Shown: positions 170-42,868 of the stretch, in pieces
How the letters are laid out: each line of letters begins with the position of its first letter
Position numbering within the stretch: position 1 is the first letter of the stretch
DNA from: an uncultured Acidobacteriia bacterium
GTDB lineage: Bacteria; Acidobacteriota; Terriglobia; Bryobacterales; Bryobacteraceae
Direction: 5' to 3'
DNA: 42,868 nucleotides
NCBI GenBank assembly: GCA_903907865.1
Contig: CAIVPR010000069.1
Span: 1 to 42,868, forward strand
Position numbers and translations under genes: made by a program
Notes under the pieces: generated by a model
Seen by the model: the letters and a program-made list of their open reading frames with translations, nothing else
Told to the model about the DNA's origin: nothing
The model's database searches: none

Positions 170-177
170 TGGACCTC

Positions 178-259
178 CGTTGTGGGGCAGGATGGCATCC
201 TGCGCGGAGGTTGCCAAGCTCCGCACGCGCCCTCAAGGCGCGCATTTGGCTACCCCTGA
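178..259 (+). repeat. Cloverleaf-like hairpin repeat, copy A
   Basis: Three consecutive hairpins lie inside a closing stem. Arm 1 is GCAGGATG/CATCCTGC around one G (187-203). Arm 2 is GCGGAG...CTCCGC with an inner TTG/CAA (204-224). Arm 3 is GCGCC/GGCGC (227-241). GGGG at 184-187 can pair with CCCC at 253-256; the last G overlaps arm 1, so either the outer stem or arm 1 gives up a pair. The same architecture with different stem sequences occurs at 6427-6508 and, with an insertion, at 1804-1951. It sits between the upstream ORF and the terminase ATPase ORF. Confidence 0.75.
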
Positions 260-361
260 GCCCCCAGTCACACGCGATCCAACTTTTTATTGCCTGTCTT
301 TTCTTACACTTGACCCCCAGCCAGGGCACCGGTCTCCACCAGCCCCTGCTAAAGCTGGCTT

Positions 362-1192
362 ATGACAAATCTATGGCATCCATTCCCGGCACACAAGCGG
401 GAGCTACCGCTCGGCCACTGTCTGCCTCCGCCGGAGCCAGCACTCGCCGTCTCCGAAACCGGTTTCGACCCCGTGGCCTTCGCGCGGCTCCGACTCGGTT
501 TCCATCCCGACCCGCGCCAGGAGTCCATCCTCCGTTCCACCGCCAAGCGCGGAATCCTCAACTGCTCCCGGCAATGGGGCAAATCCATGGTCGGCGCGGC
601 CATGGCCGTCATCCGCGCCCACACCCGGCCCTCCTCGCTCGTCCTCGTGGCCGCCCCGACCGAGCGGCAGTCCGGCGAACTCGTCCGCACCGCCGAATCC
701 ATGGTCCACAATATGGGCCTCGATCCCAAGGGCGACGGCACCAACAAGATCTCCATCGCCTTCGACAACGGCTCCCGCATCGTCGGCCTGCCGGGCCACC
801 TCACGGGCAACGCGGGCGGAATCCGCGGTTTCGCCGTCTCCTTGCTCCTGGTCGACGAAGCCGCCTATCTGAACGACGACGTCTACCACGCGCTCACCCC
901 GATGCTGGGAGCCACCGACGGCGACCTATGGCTGATGTCGACACCCAACGGCAAGCGCGGCTTCTTCTACGAAACGTGGGCTTTCGGCACCGGCTGGGAG
1001 AAGGTGAAGGGCCTGGCGAAGGACTGTCCCCGAATCCGCCCTGAGTTTCTCGAGCGGCAGCGCGAAAACATGGGTGCCGTCCGATTCGAGCAGGACTTCC
1101 TCTGCGAATTCACCGAATCCGAAGACGCCACATTCTCCCAGCTCCTGATCGACCGCGCGGCTGACAGCACCATCAAGCCCCTCGACCTCTAA
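362..1192 (+). CDS. Terminase large subunit-like ATPase domain (stand-alone)
   Basis: The 276-residue protein carries the motor half of a phage-type large terminase, which uses ATP to drive DNA into procapsids. A Walker A-like P-loop CSRQWGKS lies at 68-75, Walker B LLLVDEAAY at 161-169 and a coupling motif STPNG at 193-197. A complete TerL is usually 450-600 residues and continues into an RNase H-like nuclease. Here the ORF stops just after the ATPase, and the nuclease is a separate ORF about 180 bp downstream, so this is a divided or broken TerL. No portal, capsid or tail gene is in the window. The ATG at 362 has no clear ribosome-binding site. The motor-domain assignment is firm; activity is unknown. 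Confidence 0.82.
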   Translation: MTNLWHPFPAHKRELPLGHCLPPPEPALAVSETGFDPVAFARLRLGFHPDPRQESILRSTAKRGILNCSRQWGKSMVGAAMAVIRAHTRPSSLVLVAAPTERQSGELVRTAESMVHNMGLDPKGDGTNKISIAFDNGSRIVGLPGHLTGNAGGIRGFAVSLLLVDEAAYLNDDVYHALTPMLGATDGDLWLMSTPNGKRGFFYETWAFGTGWEKVKGLAKDCPRIRPEFLERQRENMGAVRFEQDFLCEFTESEDATFSQLLIDRAADSTIKPLDL

Positions 1193-1202
1193 GATTCGTG
1201 GC

Positions 1203-1320
1203 GCACGCAATCATGCGTGCCGCGTCGACAATCCTGTCGACGCCTGTTCTTCGTTTTCCTGCGGCTCGCCCGTTGTAGGGCAGCCATTCTTGGCTGCGCC
1301 AGGCTTTCAGCTTGGCATAA
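1203..1320 (+). repeat. Tandem hairpin array between the terminase halves
   Basis: Four hairpins follow one another: GCACGCA-ATCA-TGCGTGC (1203-1220), GCGTCGACA-ATCC-TGTCGACGC (1222-1243), GCAGCCA-TTCT-TGGCTGC (1280-1297) and GCCAGGCT-TTC-AGCTTGGC (1298-1316). The last pair forms a unit at 1272-1320 that recurs at 6568-6617 and, inverted, at 39521-39569. Stem sequences differ between arms, whereas the apex of the first three follows CA(A/T)TC(A/C/T)TG. The array fills the gap between the ATPase and nuclease ORFs. Confidence 0.8.
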
Positions 1321-1373
1321 CCGTATCGCTTCTTAAAACAGACTATCTCAAACAACCCAAAAAGGAATCCCAA

Positions 1374-1766
1374 ATGTTCTTCCTAGGCATAGACCTCGGC
1401 CAACGCCGTGACAACACGGCAATCGCAATCGTCGAAAAGATCGAAACCCGCACCCCGTGGGGCACGGAATTCCAGAGCCTCCACTGCCGCCACGCCGAAC
1501 GCGTCCCGCTCGGCACGCCTTACGCCATCGCCGTCGACGCCACCGGAGTCGCCGCCCCTGTAGTCGAAATGATGCGCCGAGCCGGACTCGGCTGCGACAT
1601 CTCCGCCGTAACCATAACCGGAGGCGGCACCGCCAGCAGCGTTGGCGACAAGCACAACGTCCCCAAGCCGGACCTCTGGGCCGGCATCAGCGCCTTCAAC
1701 ATCGGAGTCGGCCCCAAACGCGCCGACACCTACGGCCCCGTCCTCCGCTACCACCACCGCCTCTGA
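1374..1766 (+). CDS. Terminase nuclease-like domain, C-terminally truncated
   Basis: The 130-residue product begins with MFFLGIDLGQ, a typical first strand of the RNase H-like nuclease domain of large terminases, with Asp7 as likely first metal ligand. A second acidic position is Asp55 in AIAVDATG. The ATG at 1374 has AAGGA eight bases upstream, better than an earlier in-frame start inside the hairpin repeat. TerL nuclease domains normally run to about 200 residues and end with further acidic residues. Here the protein ends abruptly after KRADTYGPVLRYHHRL, so the last catalytic part appears lost or rearranged. It probably once continued the ATPase ORF ending at 1192. Activity is doubtful. Confidence 0.7.
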   Translation: MFFLGIDLGQRRDNTAIAIVEKIETRTPWGTEFQSLHCRHAERVPLGTPYAIAVDATGVAAPVVEMMRRAGLGCDISAVTITGGGTASSVGDKHNVPKPDLWAGISAFNIGVGPKRADTYGPVLRYHHRL

Positions 1767-1803
1767 TAGGCATGCCTCGGGTTCCAGCAGGTGCTCGCGT
1801 CCG

Positions 1804-2061
1804 GTGTGGGGCAGGTTGGCATCCTGCGGCGGGGTCTTCAATCGCAGACCTGTGCCGGACTTATCCAGGTGGTCCCTCGTCTGTAAGCCGTCGCCACTGG
1901 TCAACACCGCCACGCGCCCTCAAGGCGCGGATTTGGTTGCCCCTCCGCTGCTGTGCATTTACCCTGTATGGTTACCGCTCCGCTGCTGTGCAGCCTGCTC
2001 CCAAACCCCCGTGGGGCGGCCAATATTGGCCGCGGCGAGCTTCAGCAAGCCGTAACCGCAA
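1804..2061 (+). repeat. Complex hairpin repeat block, copy B plus extra arms
   Basis: This block starts with the GGGGCAG arm seen at 184 (GCAGGTTG/CATCCTGC, one mismatch) and ends its first part with the GCGCC/GGCGC arm followed by GGATTTGG and GCCCC. Between them is extra sequence containing GGTCT/AGACC (1834-1851). GGGGCA and TGCCCC can close the whole element. A second part to about 2061 carries further inverted arms such as GGCCAATATTGGCC. With the hairpin at 2118-2144, this accounts for most of the 460-bp gap between the nuclease ORF and the receptor gene. Confidence 0.65.
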
Positions 2062-2117
2062 ACTCCGGGCCAGAGCAAGCCTTCCTTGCCAGCTGCGCCC
2101 CAACCTCCGCCTTCTCA

Positions 2118-2144
2118 AAAGTAACGTATCGCAACCGTTACTTT
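2118..2144. promoter_or_regulatory. Perfect 9-bp inverted repeat upstream of receptor gene
   Basis: AAAGTAACG and CGTTACTTT flank a 9-base spacer, ending 85 bases before the receptor ATG. It is more AT-rich than its surroundings and differs from the hairpin-array repeats. It could be an operator or a weak terminator for the upstream repeat region; no long T run follows. Confidence 0.4.
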
Positions 2145-2229
2145 CTTGTGGCCCCCCAAAATACGTGATAGCTTCGCAATCAGGGTCCGCAGCAAAAACT
2201 GCGCCGCAGAACATCAGGGAGTACAGAAA

Positions 2230-5200
2230 ATGAGATTCTTCGTCCGAATCGTAATGTGCGCGATGCTCGCGCACGCCGCCTTATGGGCACAGTCCGGAAG
2301 TGCCCAAATATCCGGCACCGTCCATGACTCCAGCGGCGGAGCAATCCCCGGCGCCAACATCAAGGCCACCCAAACCGACACCGGCTTCACCCGCGTGGCC
2401 GTCGCCGGAGCCGACGGGGCCTACGTCCTCGCCAACCTGCCCATCGGCCCCTACAAGCTCGAGGTCACCAAGGAAGGCTTCAGCACCTTCGTAGAACCCG
2501 GCATCATCCTCGAAGTCAACACCAACCCCGCCATCAACCCGACCCTCAAGGTCGGCTCGGTCAGCGAAACCATCACAGTCGAAGCCGAGGGCCTCGCGGT
2601 CGAAACCCGCAGTTCCGGCGTCGGCCAGGTCATCAACCACCAAGAGGTTGTCGACCTGCCCCTGAACGCCCGCGAACCGGCCCAGTTGATCCTCCTCGTC
2701 GGCGGTGCCACCAACCAGGGCGCCAACGCCTCGGACCTCAACACCAACAAGAACTACCCCACCGTTGCCATCTCGGTGGCGGGCGCGAATGCCAACCAAA
2801 TCGCATTCTCGCTCGACGGCGCCACCGCCAACGAGCCCTTCAACGGCCTCAACCAGCCGCTTCCCTTCCCTGACGCACTGCAGGAGTTCAAGGTCGAAAC
2901 CAGTTCCGTCGGCGCGCAGACCGGCCAGCACGCGGCGGCCTCCGTGACCGTCGCCACCCGCTCCGGCACCAACGCCTTCCACGGCAACGTCTTCGAATAC
3001 GTCCGCAACTACAACTTCAACGGCCGCACCGCCACCGCCCTCACCCGCGACAGCTTGAAGCAGAACCAGTTCGGCGGCACCATCGGCGGCCCCATCATGA
3101 GGAACAAGCTGTTCTTCTTCGTCGGCGAGCAATCCACCATCAAGCGTTCCAATCCCGGCGGCAACCAAGGCTTCTCCATGACGCCCGCCATGCTCAAGGG
3201 CGATTTCTCGGTGATCGCCTCCACCCAATGCCAGACCAAGCAGATCACACTCGCGGGACCGTGGGTCGGCAACGTACTCCCCCAGTCCCTCCTGGACCCC
3301 ATTGCCATGAAGATCGCCGCACTGCTGCCGACCTCTGGCCAGCTCAACGCCTGCGGCCTGATTAACTACGCGGCGGGCGGCAACCAGCGCCAGTACCAGA
3401 TTCCGGCCAAGGTCGACTACGTCCTCAACAGCAAACAGACCATGTTCGTGCGCTATATCCTCTCGAACAACTACACGCCGCTGTTCTACGACCCCGCGAA
3501 CCCCCTATTCACCGGCAGCACCACCGGCCAGAGCAACAACATCCAGTCCACCGCCATCGGCCACACCTACACCATCACCCCGACCTTCCTTTCCAGCGCC
3601 CACATCTCGGCCAACCGCAGCTTGAACCCCCGCTTCATCCCCGTCTTCAAGGCACCTGTCGATTTCGGGATCCCGATCACCCCCGTGATCCCGGCCCAGA
3701 TGAACCTCTCCGTGACCAACGGCGTTAGCCTCGCGGGCGGTGCCAGCAATCCCGGTTACTTCAACACCCTGTCCTACTCCGGTGCCGAGGACCTGACCCT
3801 GCTAATCGGAAAGCACAACCTGCAGTTCGGTGCCCAGTACATACGCGCCTATTTGCACGCGCAGAACACCCGTGGCGTCAACGGCAACTTGACCTTCACC
3901 GGACAGTACTCCACAGTCGGCGGCGCGGCAGGAATCGGTTATGCCGACTTCGTCACCGGCCAACTCAACGCCTTCGGCCAAGGCCGCCCCTTCTACGACA
4001 ACGACAAATCCGACTACTACGGCCTCTATGTCCAGGACGCCTTCCGAGTAAGTTCGCGCCTAAGCCTGAACATTGGTCTCCGCTTCGAGCCCTATCTACC
4101 GCAGCGCAACACCGATGGCTACGTGGAAGCGTTCAACATGGACAACTTCCTGTCCAACAAGTTCGGCACGGCTCCCAAGTCCACCCCGGCCCTGACCCCG
4201 CCTCCCGGCCTGATCTTCCCCGGCGACAGCGGTTATCCCCCCAACAACCAGTACAACAACCGCGCCGAGCATTTCCTGCCGCGTCTCGGACTCGTCTGGG
4301 ATCCCTTCGGCGACGGCAAGACCTCCGTCCGTGCATCCTACGGGCTCCTCTACGACTACCCGCACATGTTCTTCTACACCCGCGTCTCCAACAACCCGCC
4401 GTGGGGTGCCACCATCACCCGCGCGGGCGGTCCGTTCCCGCTCTCGAACCCGTGGGCCGGCTACGCGGGCGGCGACCCGTTCGTGCAGCAGTCCGGCACG
4501 GCCAAGTCGCTCGGCTTCTTTCCAACGGGCGGCGTCTACGCGGTCTCGGACCCCAATCTGAAGTCGCCCCAGATGCAGACTTGGAACCTGTCGATCCAGC
4601 GCCAAGTGGGCAAGTGGCTCTTTAGCGGATCCTATCTGGGCAACCACTCGATCCACCTGTGGTCCAGCCGCGAGTTGAATGTGGACAAGTACATCCCCGG
4701 CAACTGCGTGGCGGGCCAATACGGCCTGACCGCCCCCGGCCCCTGCTCCAGCACCAGTTCGACCAACACGGCGGCCCGGAAGCTGCTGACCTTGGCGAAC
4801 CCGACCTGGGGACCGTCGTACAGCACCATCGCCTACCTCGACGCCGGTGCCACCTCCAGCTACAACGCGGCGTTGCTTTCGGCGCAGCACCGGCTGACCG
4901 ACAACTTCAGCGTGCTCGCCAACTGGACCTACTCGCACTGCATCGCGGACCCCAACACGACGGAGCTGACCGGTCCGTCCTACGTCGATCCGACCAATCG
5001 CCATGCCGACCGCTCCAGTTGCAGTTCGGACCACCGCCACCAGATCAACATTTCGGGCATCCTGACCACACCCAAGTTCAAGGACCGGATTCTGGCCCTG
5101 ATCGGCAACGGTTGGCAGGCCTCGCCGATCATCCGGTGGAGCAACGGCAACCTGACCTCCGCCACCTACGGCACCGACGTGGCTCTGACCGCCGCCACCA

Positions 5201-5577
5201 ACCAGCGTGCGCAGCAAATCCTGCCCAACATCTACGGCGATGGCAGCACGACCAACTACCTCAACGTGAACGCGTTCCTCGCTCCGGCAGCCGCGCCCGC
5301 AGGCGTATACGCCGGGACCAAACCATTCACCATCATCGGACCGAACGTCATGAACGTCGACCTCTCGCTCTCCCGCAACTTCCGGTTCCGCGAATGGGGC
5401 AACGTGACGTTCCGCGCCGAGGCCTTCAACATGCCGAACAGCGTGATGTTCGGACCGCCCACTGCGGCGCTCAACAGCTCCAGCTTCGGACGTCTGACGC
5501 CCCAGGCGCAGAGTTCCGCGCCGGGCAACAACACCACGGCGCGCGTGATGCAGTTCTCGCTGAAGTACGCTTTCTAA
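2230..5577 (+). CDS. Oar-like TonB-dependent outer-membrane receptor
   Basis: The 1115-residue protein is predicted to be an outer-membrane beta-barrel transporter that imports a ligand using TonB energy. It opens with a signal peptide (MRFFVRIVMCAMLAHAALWAQ), then a carboxypeptidase-regulatory-like beta domain with ISGTVHDSSGGAIPGANI near residues 28-45. A plug-like region follows (QVINHQEVVDLPLNAREP near 140), then a long barrel rich in aromatic strands ending in Phe (FSLKYAF), as for BamA-dependent barrels. The start at 2230 has GGGAG upstream and restores the signal peptide; an earlier in-frame ATG does not. The large size without a SusD partner is common in Acidobacteriota. The next gene begins 9 bases downstream, so they are probably cotranscribed. 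The ligand cannot be read from sequence. Confidence 0.9.
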   Translation: MRFFVRIVMCAMLAHAALWAQSGSAQISGTVHDSSGGAIPGANIKATQTDTGFTRVAVAGADGAYVLANLPIGPYKLEVTKEGFSTFVEPGIILEVNTNPAINPTLKVGSVSETITVEAEGLAVETRSSGVGQVINHQEVVDLPLNAREPAQLILLVGGATNQGANASDLNTNKNYPTVAISVAGANANQIAFSLDGATANEPFNGLNQPLPFPDALQEFKVETSSVGAQTGQHAAASVTVATRSGTNAFHGNVFEYVRNYNFNGRTATALTRDSLKQNQFGGTIGGPIMRNKLFFFVGEQSTIKRSNPGGNQGFSMTPAMLKGDFSVIASTQCQTKQITLAGPWVGNVLPQSLLDPIAMKIAALLPTSGQLNACGLINYAAGGNQRQYQIPAKVDYVLNSKQTMFVRYILSNNYTPLFYDPANPLFTGSTTGQSNNIQSTAIGHTYTITPTFLSSAHISANRSLNPRFIPVFKAPVDFGIPITPVIPAQMNLSVTNGVSLAGGASNPGYFNTLSYSGAEDLTLLIGKHNLQFGAQYIRAYLHAQNTRGVNGNLTFTGQYSTVGGAAGIGYADFVTGQLNAFGQGRPFYDNDKSDYYGLYVQDAFRVSSRLSLNIGLRFEPYLPQRNTDGYVEAFNMDNFLSNKFGTAPKSTPALTPPPGLIFPGDSGYPPNNQYNNRAEHFLPRLGLVWDPFGDGKTSVRASYGLLYDYPHMFFYTRVSNNPPWGATITRAGGPFPLSNPWAGYAGGDPFVQQSGTAKSLGFFPTGGVYAVSDPNLKSPQMQTWNLSIQRQVGKWLFSGSYLGNHSIHLWSSRELNVDKYIPGNCVAGQYGLTAPGPCSSTSSTNTAARKLLTLANPTWGPSYSTIAYLDAGATSSYNAALLSAQHRLTDNFSVLANWTYSHCIADPNTTELTGPSYVDPTNRHADRSSCSSDHRHQINISGILTTPKFKDRILALIGNGWQASPIIRWSNGNLTSATYGTDVALTAATNQRAQQILPNIYGDGSTTNYLNVNAFLAPAAAPAGVYAGTKPFTIIGPNVMNVDLSLSRNFRFREWGNVTFRAEAFNMPNSVMFGPPTAALNSSSFGRLTPQAQSSAPGNNTTARVMQFSLKYAF

Positions 5578-5586
5578 GGGAGGCAA

Positions 5587-6378
5587 ATGGCTAGCGAACC
5601 GGTAAAGACTTTGGCCCCGTGGCGCACTGCGATTGTCAGCGCACACGAGAATTCCATCCGCATACGGGGCTACGACATCACCGAATTGATGCAGAAGGCG
5701 AGCTTCACCGACACGGTGTTCCTACTGCATCGGAGCCGGTTACCGTCGGCGGCGGAGAGCAGATTGCTCAACGCCATCCTAATTTCGGGCGCGGACCACG
5801 GGGCAAACGCCCCATCCTGCGCCACGGCGAGGCTAGCGGCGTCGGGCAACCGGCAGTCGCTGTCGGCGGCCGTGGCGGCTGGAATCCTGACCATCGGCGA
5901 CGAGCACGGTGGCGCGGGATCGCTCTGCATGGAGATGATCGCCGCCGGACTCGCAAGATGCGGGGCTGAAGGGGTTTCAATCGCCGAAGCAGCCAAGCGC
6001 ACGGTGGACGACGCACGGGCGAACGGCAAACGGCTGCCGGGACTGGGGCATCGGGTCCACTCGACCGACCCCCGCGTGGCCGTCCTATTCGGAATGGCCC
6101 GCGAGGCCGGTCTTCCAACCGCCGGGGCGGAGTTTATGACGGCGCTGGAAGCGGAGGTCGGTGCAAGGGTCAAACCCCTGCCGATCAACGTGGACGGAGC
6201 GCTGGCTGCAGTACTTTACGATATGGGCTTCCCCTCGGAAGCGGGGAAGTTGTTGTTCATAGTGAGCAGGGTAGCGGGCTTGACCGCGGAGGTTTCGGAG
6301 GAGTACGCCAGGGAAAAGCCCATGCGCATCCGAATCCCCGTCGAATACGACGGCCCCCCACCCCGCTCCATGCCCTAA
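5587..6378 (+). CDS. Citryl-CoA-lyase-like / short citrate-synthase-fold enzyme
   Basis: The 263-residue protein resembles the citrate-synthase-like C-terminal module of ATP-citrate lyase and stand-alone citryl-CoA lyases, which cleave or form a C-C bond at an acyl-CoA. Key positions are ADHG (69-72), GDEHGG (104-109), GHR in PGLGHRVH (151-158) and NVDG (201-204), matching the His/His/Asp catalytic pattern of the family. Full citrate synthases are about 370-430 residues, so this is the compact form. A strong Shine-Dalgarno (GGGAGG) precedes the ATG, 9 bases after the receptor stop. Downstream lie an acylating aldehyde dehydrogenase, a ThDP enzyme and an MFS carrier, so it probably acts on a CoA ester made there. 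The actual substrate is unknown. Confidence 0.75.
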   Translation: MASEPVKTLAPWRTAIVSAHENSIRIRGYDITELMQKASFTDTVFLLHRSRLPSAAESRLLNAILISGADHGANAPSCATARLAASGNRQSLSAAVAAGILTIGDEHGGAGSLCMEMIAAGLARCGAEGVSIAEAAKRTVDDARANGKRLPGLGHRVHSTDPRVAVLFGMAREAGLPTAGAEFMTALEAEVGARVKPLPINVDGALAAVLYDMGFPSEAGKLLFIVSRVAGLTAEVSEEYAREKPMRIRIPVEYDGPPPRSMP

Positions 6379-6426
6379 GCTATGCCTTACCTACCCACAA
6401 GATCTTCGCGGCCTGCAACCATTTCC

Positions 6427-6508
6427 GTTGTGGGGCAGGCTGGCAGCCTGCGCGGCGGTCGCCGACCGGCGCACGCGCCATCTAGGCGCGGATTTGGCCG
6501 CCCCTCCG
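6427..6508 (+). repeat. Cloverleaf-like hairpin repeat, copy C
   Basis: This copy has the same order as 178-259: GCAGGCTG/CAGCCTGC arm, then an arm centred on GGTCG-C-CGACC, then GCGCC-ATCTA-GGCGC, enclosed by GGGGC and GCCCC. Relative to copy A, GGATG/CATCC has become GGCTG/CAGCC, and the inner pair of arm 2 has changed from T-A to C-G, so pairing is kept while sequence changes. It lies between the lyase-like gene and the acylating dehydrogenase gene. Confidence 0.75.
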
Positions 6509-6567
6509 CCGCAATGTATTACCTGCCCGCAGAATCTTTGCTTGCAACGATTCGTGCTGACGCAGCC

Positions 6568-6716
6568 GTTGTGGGGCAGCCATTCTTGGCTGCGCCAGGC
6601 TTTCAGCCTGGCATGACCGAGCATTCGGGCGCGCCAGCCAACCGATTGGCCGCCCCTCCGCTTCCTTGTGGGGCAGGCAATCTTGCCTGCAGCCGCCTTT
6701 CCAGGCGGCCATAACC
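6568..6716 (+). repeat. Hairpin array: GCAGCC unit and GCAGGC unit
   Basis: The unit at 6568-6617 is nearly identical to 1272-1320: GCAGCCA-TTCT-TGGCTGC then GCCAGGCT-TTC-AGCCTGGC. A second unit at 6664-6716 has the same two-arm plan with new stems: GCAGGCAA-TC-TTGCCTGC (6673-6690) and GCCGCCT-TTCC-AGGCGGC (6692-6709). Both units end in GGC followed by ATRACC. With 6427-6508 this occupies most of the 390-bp gap before the dehydrogenase gene. Confidence 0.8.
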
Positions 6717-39288: not shown

Positions 39289-39520
39289 CTCGTGGGACTC
39301 GCGCTGAACAAGCTGACAGGATGGGTGTGGCAGGTCGGACATGCGCACCAAAACTGGAGCACCGCGGGGGAGATGCCGCATAGGTGTTGTCACCTAAGCG
39401 TCCCCGGGGAAACGGCGAGGGGGTGCCGGTTGTAGAGCGGGCATTCCTGTCGACCGGGACCTTTTAGGTCGTGATAGCCGAAGGCCGACCGAGCAAGATC
39501 ACCCGTCCCCGGGGAATCCG

Positions 39521-39569
39521 GTTATGCCAGGCTGAAAGCCTGGCGCAGCCAAGAATGGCTGCCCTACAC
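39521..39569 (-). repeat. Hairpin unit, inverted copy of 1272-1320
   Basis: On the minus strand this reads GTAGGGCAGCCATTCTTGGC and continues into GCCAGGCT-TTC-AGCCTGGC, nearly identical to 6568-6617 and 1272-1320. It lies between the truncated toxin and the end of the second receptor gene. Confidence 0.8.
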
Positions 39570-42778: not shown

Positions 42779-42868
42779 GTTGCGGTAGGGATGAGCATCA
42801 CTGCCCACCCCCCGCGCAGATCCGTACGGGCGGAATTACCGCATACGGCTCCTCCCTTGGATACGAGC
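42779..42868 (-). mobile_element. Group II intron 3' end (domains V and VI), partial
   Basis: Read on the minus strand, 42851-42819 is a group II domain V: GAGCCGTATGCGG, an internal loop/apex TAATTC, then CGCCCGTACGGATC, with the catalytic AGC triad at its 5' side and stems closing correctly. It is followed by a G-rich stem, GGGTGGGCA pairing with TGCTCATCCC, that fits domain VI, and the intron probably ends near CTACCGCAAC at about 42779. The rest, including any reverse transcriptase, lies beyond the right edge. The call rests on the strong match of domain V to the family consensus as I know it. Confidence 0.82.

Follow-up and report, generated by a model that had tools for sequence, protein, structure and literature searches.

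The window analysed here is the whole of contig CAIVPR010000069.1 (C69; 42,868 nt), one of the 186 contigs of a 98% complete, 7.5-Mb genome of an uncultured Acidobacteriia bacterium of the Bryobacteraceae. It contains three copies of a short dispersed repeat (hereinafter the three-hairpin element), the first of which adjoins a terminase-large-subunit-like gene, together with copies of a second, two-hairpin repeat (hereinafter family B; Table 1). The shared unit of the three-hairpin element is 67 nt long and consists of a GTGG foot followed by three tandem hairpins (arms 1, 2 and 3): its core reads TCCGTTGTGGGG, hairpin 1 (GCAGGNTGGCANCCTGC), hairpin 2 (nine pairs around GCC) and hairpin 3 (CGCGCC...GGCGCG), with one extra G between the foot and the stem. 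Two of the copies had been recognised in a first-pass annotation, and the common order of three arms described there is real, the foot preceding arms 1, 2 and 3 in both cores. The paired differences that it read between them are likewise present in the sequence, arm 1 being GGATG/CATCC in copy 1 and GGCTG/CAGCC in copy 2, and an inner arm-2 pair being T-A in the former and C-G in the latter. That annotation did not list the G-G mismatch that arm 2 carries in each of these copies, and it overlooked the third copy, which has the foot, arm 1 and arm 3 of the short form and an arm 2 about 63 nt longer. As set out below, these repeats are very probably non-autonomous mobile DNA of the repetitive extragenic palindrome (REP) kind, probably moved as a single strand by a REP-associated tyrosine transposase (RAYT).

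The family is large and its unit well delimited. An arm-1 pattern searched with up to three mismatches gives 91 matches genome-wide and none for the reversed control, and in all 42 exact matches the variable pair is complementary. A covariance model trained on 30 copies (29 distinct) finds 101 matches at E ≤0.01, five of which are opposite-strand partials of copies already listed; we put the family at about 90–95 elements, the high dispersed copy number that marks REPs, which usually exceed 100 copies per genome (PMC2817692). The other 96 matches were extracted, and 72 have a core of 65–69 nt; dropping a contig-end duplicate and one failed head left a set of 70, which still contains two matches of the other repeat family, one long-arm-2 copy and some decayed copies. 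In this set the foot, the GT(A/G)G tetranucleotide expected at the foot of a REP palindrome, occupies columns 7–10 and is 97–99% conserved at each column. Conservation is 97–99% over columns 6–16 and 64–83% over columns 1–5, and falls to 26–55% before and 30–64% after the core, indicating that the unit has clear ends. An ATTTGGYTGC-like tail follows the core in 28 of the 70 copies, compared with 1.4 in shuffles.

Comparison with congeners shows that the element is present in a lineage-specific manner at two sites, those of copies 1 and 2. G018 carries a syntenic stretch, 83% identical from window position 253 onward, that has no copy 1; the missing stretch extends to about position 251 and includes the tail CATTTGGCT. 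The two genes that border the cluster of about 390 bp holding copy 2 stand without it in G018 and G015, as base-by-base alignment shows, and match coordinates place 18 (G018), 15 (G015), 27 (G016) and 50 (G006) bases at this site.

RAYTs are described as flanked by inverted REPs with a GT(A/G)G head (PMC2817692). RAYT-like genes occur in 25 of the 61 genomes searched, this genome included. After removal of three duplicates, 31 RAYT loci were compared, one of which (L114) had been chosen for its element; a GT(A/G)G-footed hairpin lies within 200 bp upstream in 17, downstream in 19 and on both sides in 14, compared with 5 of 211 control windows, and footed hairpins of any kind stand inverted on both sides in 13. 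The one RAYT found in this genome, on C88, is flanked by inverted family-B hairpins; in the congener G015, a second RAYT lies between two three-hairpin elements, of which one has the long arm 2. A RAYT tree of 28 rows groups the G015 gene with those of G006, G008, G019, G033 and one named Bryobacteraceae metagenome-assembled genome at modest support (83/87), and GCAGGNTG-type hairpins are found in every row of this clade; this genome's RAYT falls in another clade (96/93), with family-B hairpins in three of four rows. NHVH, WQ and YIExNP are invariant in six aligned RAYT proteins, which thus carry the HuH, W and YI..NP motifs of Class 2 RAYTs (TnpAREP); the best match among solved structures is 4er8, a TnpArep (E 0.0074), and Pfam Y1_Tnp scores above its cut-off in all three proteins tested. 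Genomes with at least ten model matches carry a RAYT in 8 of 10 cases, compared with 17 of 51 for the remainder, an association (Fisher P 0.011, phylogeny ignored) that lends the link weak support. Since the one RAYT found here belongs to family B, the three-hairpin element is probably orphaned in this genome.

A different transposase source, an ordinary IS200/IS605 insertion sequence of which the element would be a miniature inverted-repeat transposable element, is suggested by two IS200-like tnpA genes in the genome. Neither the head nor the arm pattern occurs beside the tnpA genes (L031, L032, L034), and only two bare GTRGGGC heptamers were seen, more than 1.2 kb from the gene. We therefore rejected these genes as the source of the element and regard this origin as highly improbable.

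The REP reading thus draws on a 67-nt unit with clear ends, some 90–95 copies, lineage-specific sites, and a clade of RAYTs in relatives beside the same foot and first hairpin. Several observations weigh against it. Searches of this genome (98% complete, 186 contigs) did not turn up a cognate (clade A) RAYT, nor was one found in G018, which has 12 model matches, and the two elements at the G015 RAYT are in direct rather than inverted order. At the 31 RAYT-like loci a footed hairpin is on neither side in nine and on one side only in eight; L212, within the family-B RAYT clade, has another hairpin, and L238, outside both clades, has a similar GCAGG hairpin, GCAGGTTTCAACCTGC. The NCBIfam model for REP-associated tyrosine transposase (NF047646) has a cut-off of 80 bits, which the scores obtained, 72.5 and 75.7, do not reach. 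Among the motif patterns tabulated in PMC6006769, that of subclass 2.1 comes closest, and no REPs are listed for it there. Pairing is not strict either, arm 2 having a G-A mismatch in 33 of the 70 copies and a G-G at another pair in 10. Target-site or excision evidence was not found.

The first-pass annotation had proposed that pairing is kept while sequence changes, and this holds genome-wide and beyond shared ancestry. Among the 29 distinct training copies, 66 cells are changed on both sides, compared with 21.6 in shuffles, and the covariation score is 0.287 against 0.076; sliding the 3' partners by 1–3 columns abolishes the signal. Further pair types show no excess (11 against 11.7 shuffled). 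In the 70 model matches the variable pair of arm 1 is T-A in 35, A-T in 25, C-G in five, G-C in three and C-T in two, the last being the matches of the other repeat family, so that 68 are Watson-Crick, two are mismatched and none is G-T (G-U). More than one arm-1 state occurs within 7 of 17 arm-2 types, which calls for at least ten switches on the assumption that a type is a single clade. Five sets of copies are identical over columns 7–56 save at this pair, where they differ. Switching of this kind is more than the common descent of fixed pairs can account for by itself; recombination between copies could produce it. A GC-rich palindrome retained through sequence change is a further feature of REPs, whose palindromicity has been taken to suggest selection for complementary mutations (PMC2817692).

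Under the REP reading, a RAYT of the HuH/tyrosine type would act on the folded single strand, recognising the foot together with hairpin 1, and move the unit; recognition by such enzymes has been described as single-strand and strand-specific, with roles for foot, bulge and loop (PMC8266576). Pairing would be retained since only copies whose strand still folds would be bound and copied, and paired variants may also be exchanged between copies by recombination or hairpin-templated copying. Binding, cleavage and copying are inferred steps.

Selection on structure or a copying process, the two options that the first-pass annotation had offered, is still the right pair. In the second, a single event, either gene conversion from another copy or a hairpin-templated rewriting of one arm from its partner, would alter both sides of a pair, and structure would be under little selection. 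No one-sided intermediate is seen at the variable pair in the 68 family matches, although the long third copy, outside that set, has a T-T mismatch there, and the five sets that differ in the variable pair only are as such copying would leave them. C184 and G015 share a site with flanks about 94% identical, at which the arm-1 pair is C-G in this genome and T-A in the congener, and the loop (GGC/GCC) and arm 2 differ as well; a weaker case, in a decayed copy, is C-G vs G-C at C158 and its G015 counterpart (flanks 80 and 68% identical). TTGGCAA and TTGCCAA are mutual reverse complements, as a flipped hairpin tip would give, and in at least four copies (L066 at about 7524 and 5944, L091 and L095) the tip of the arm-1 hairpin is duplicated internally, though imperfectly, in a way that hairpin slippage might produce. 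Two observations suggest that selection acts too: at the site shared by C98 and G018 the stems are identical and the arm-3 loop has changed while the flanks are 92 and 86% identical, and hairpins beside RAYT genes are palindromic across clades. One-step copying with little selection is, in our judgement, possible but the less probable course. A further pair, C143 and G015, was not counted as firm; its orthology is doubtful, with flanks 75 and 73% identical and all three arms different.

Strong covariation could also mark a structured RNA, a 3' untranslated region or small RNA whose fold is under selection, and none of the three window copies lies inside an open reading frame with a family match (mechanical frames do overlap them). 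G-U pairs, however, are absent from the variable pair and number 3, compared with 84 other mismatches, in the 1,120 arm-1 and arm-2 cells. Rfam gives no family match at gathering score at the element copies, its sole match in the window being a group II intron elsewhere, and the folding energies of copies 1 and 2 are no better than those of shuffles (z –0.87 and –0.41). Lineage-specific presence and the company that such hairpins keep with a DNA transposase also argue against an RNA, which we consider very unlikely.

The predicted folds bear equally on the closed cloverleaf, or four-way junction, into which the first-pass annotation had drawn the three arms by an enclosing GGGG(C)/(G)CCCC stem. 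GGGG and CCCC are found in both copies that it cited and in the third, and the lowest-energy predicted fold of copy 2 has the outer stem, with arm 1 not as described there. Across the family, 27 of 70 copies have a CCCC in the 30 nt downstream, where shuffling gives a mean of 21.8 (sd 3.1), and 10 have one close to the offset that had been cited. The CCCC of copy 1 corresponds to host sequence in a relative without the element, and the lowest-energy predicted fold of this copy has no four-way junction. On the CCCC counts, the host-flank CCCC of copy 1 and the predicted folds we rejected the closed junction as a feature of the family; the outer stem is not shared by its copies, and we hold a closed cloverleaf to be exceedingly improbable.

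Beyond this genome, the covariance model matches 17 of the 61 genomes (this one included). A scan of named genome contigs for the head pattern gives at least 105 stretches; among these 105, record titles name Acidobacteria, for the most part Bryobacterales, in 102, and the other three are contigs titled Verrucomicrobia, Deltaproteobacteria and Burkholderiales (L155, L123 and L177). The flanks of L155 are 84–100% identical to G015, and L155 may therefore be misbinned; at 2739–2955 it carries a pair of like-oriented heads 193 nt apart, compared with the single head of its G015 counterpart.

Table 1. Repeats and adjoining gene located in the 42,868-nt window.
Feature	Coordinates	Strand	Basis or context
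Copy 1, three-hairpin element, core	176..242	+	Covariance-model match, alignment
Terminase-large-subunit-like gene (Terminase_6N), adjoining copy 1	362..1192	+	Family match; multicopy in genome
Family B two-hairpin repeat, foot GTAG	1270..1323	+	Between two open reading frames of terminase-like gene
Third copy, three-hairpin element, long arm 2, core	1800..1929	+	Covariance-model match
Family B two-hairpin repeat, GGCCAATATTGGCC form	2010..2058	+	Sequence pattern
Copy 2, three-hairpin element, core	6424..6490	+	Covariance-model match, alignment
Family B two-hairpin repeat	6566..6619	+	Same cluster as copy 2
Family B two-hairpin repeat	6663..6716	+	Same cluster as copy 2
Family B two-hairpin repeat	39516..39568	–	Sequence pattern

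Family B has GTAG or GTGG feet, and its first-hairpin pattern, with up to one mismatch, gives 135 matches in the genome and none in the control; its first member in the window is not in the aligned G018 stretch. The terminase-like gene continues at 1374–1766 and has 18 matches genome-wide. A three-hairpin element lies within 1 kb of 11 of these 18 (chance about 0.035 each under a crude model, P about 2e-12), and two copies of the gene on C106 have elements on both sides. From congeners, 27 terminase-like loci were collected, of which nine short ones were skipped and 18 used; a footed hairpin of the element's kind occurs in 4 of 36 adjoining 600-bp windows and in 0 of 36 at 900–1500 bp. With 4 of 36 adjoining windows occupied, the gene is often without the element, and we rejected it as the element's carrier. 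The group II intron match lies at 42779–42853 on the reverse strand and scores 42.2 bits, compared with a cut-off of 40.

Set against known systems, the element is closest to the REP with its RAYT/TnpAREP (REPtron), with which it has in common many copies, a RAYT neighbour and a GC-rich palindrome that stands on a GT(A/G)G foot and has stayed palindromic through sequence change (PMC2817692). It differs in having three adjoining hairpins with one foot, in that its cognate RAYT was not found in this genome, and in the direct order of the elements beside the G015 RAYT. In REP doublets forming hairpins (REPINs) and bacterial interspersed mosaic elements, compensatory changes are common, and a REPIN 'clover' configuration has been proposed in a supplementary legend (PMC3116915); inverted head pairs, read as REPIN-like, occur here in 6 of 80 listed loci, in other Bryobacterales genomes. 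The copies here, in contrast, bear a single foot at one end, with no inverted pair and with downstream conservation of 30–64%, and are thus not two inverted REPs acting as one unit; REP singlets have been regarded as remnants (PMC3116915). The classes described for these transposases include a different one in Solibacter (PMC6006769): the Class 3 TnpA and CnGA-foot structures of Solibacter usitatus likewise combine an acidobacterial host with high-copy hairpins beside a Y1 transposase, but the repeats here stand on a GTGG/GTAG foot, and the RAYTs have WQ and YIExNP (a class-2 pattern) in place of W[TA] and YV..EQ. Many short repeats have been reported in Solibacter, in passages that do not mention a RAYT link (PMC3174227), and GTAG repeats are listed for Proteobacteria, Cyanobacteria, Chloroflexi and the Planctomycetes-Verrucomicrobia-Chlamydiae group (PMC3733652). 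The open-licence literature yielded neither GT(A/G)G REP/RAYT systems for this Acidobacteria group nor a three-hairpin, single-foot unit, and absence there is no proof.

The first-pass annotation had seen no feature class to which the repeats could be assigned; they fit the REP/RAYT class, in which compensatory changes and a 'clover' arrangement had already been described. The REP kind and its compensatory changes are thus known, and the asymmetric three-hairpin, single-foot unit is what differs. A bolder proposal, tentative and in our view rather unlikely, is that this unit is itself the mobile entity in this clade and that hairpin-templated copying or an inversion of the tip changes both arms of a stem at once, so that stems stay intact without slow compensatory selection. 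The finding adds a clear three-hairpin family, in an Acidobacteria group, to the GT(A/G)G REP/RAYT systems. A near-invariant 67-nt unit with one freely switching pair at orthologous sites of congeners is a natural test of how palindromes are kept up, in that the switching pair lets one-step copying and two-step compensation be told apart.

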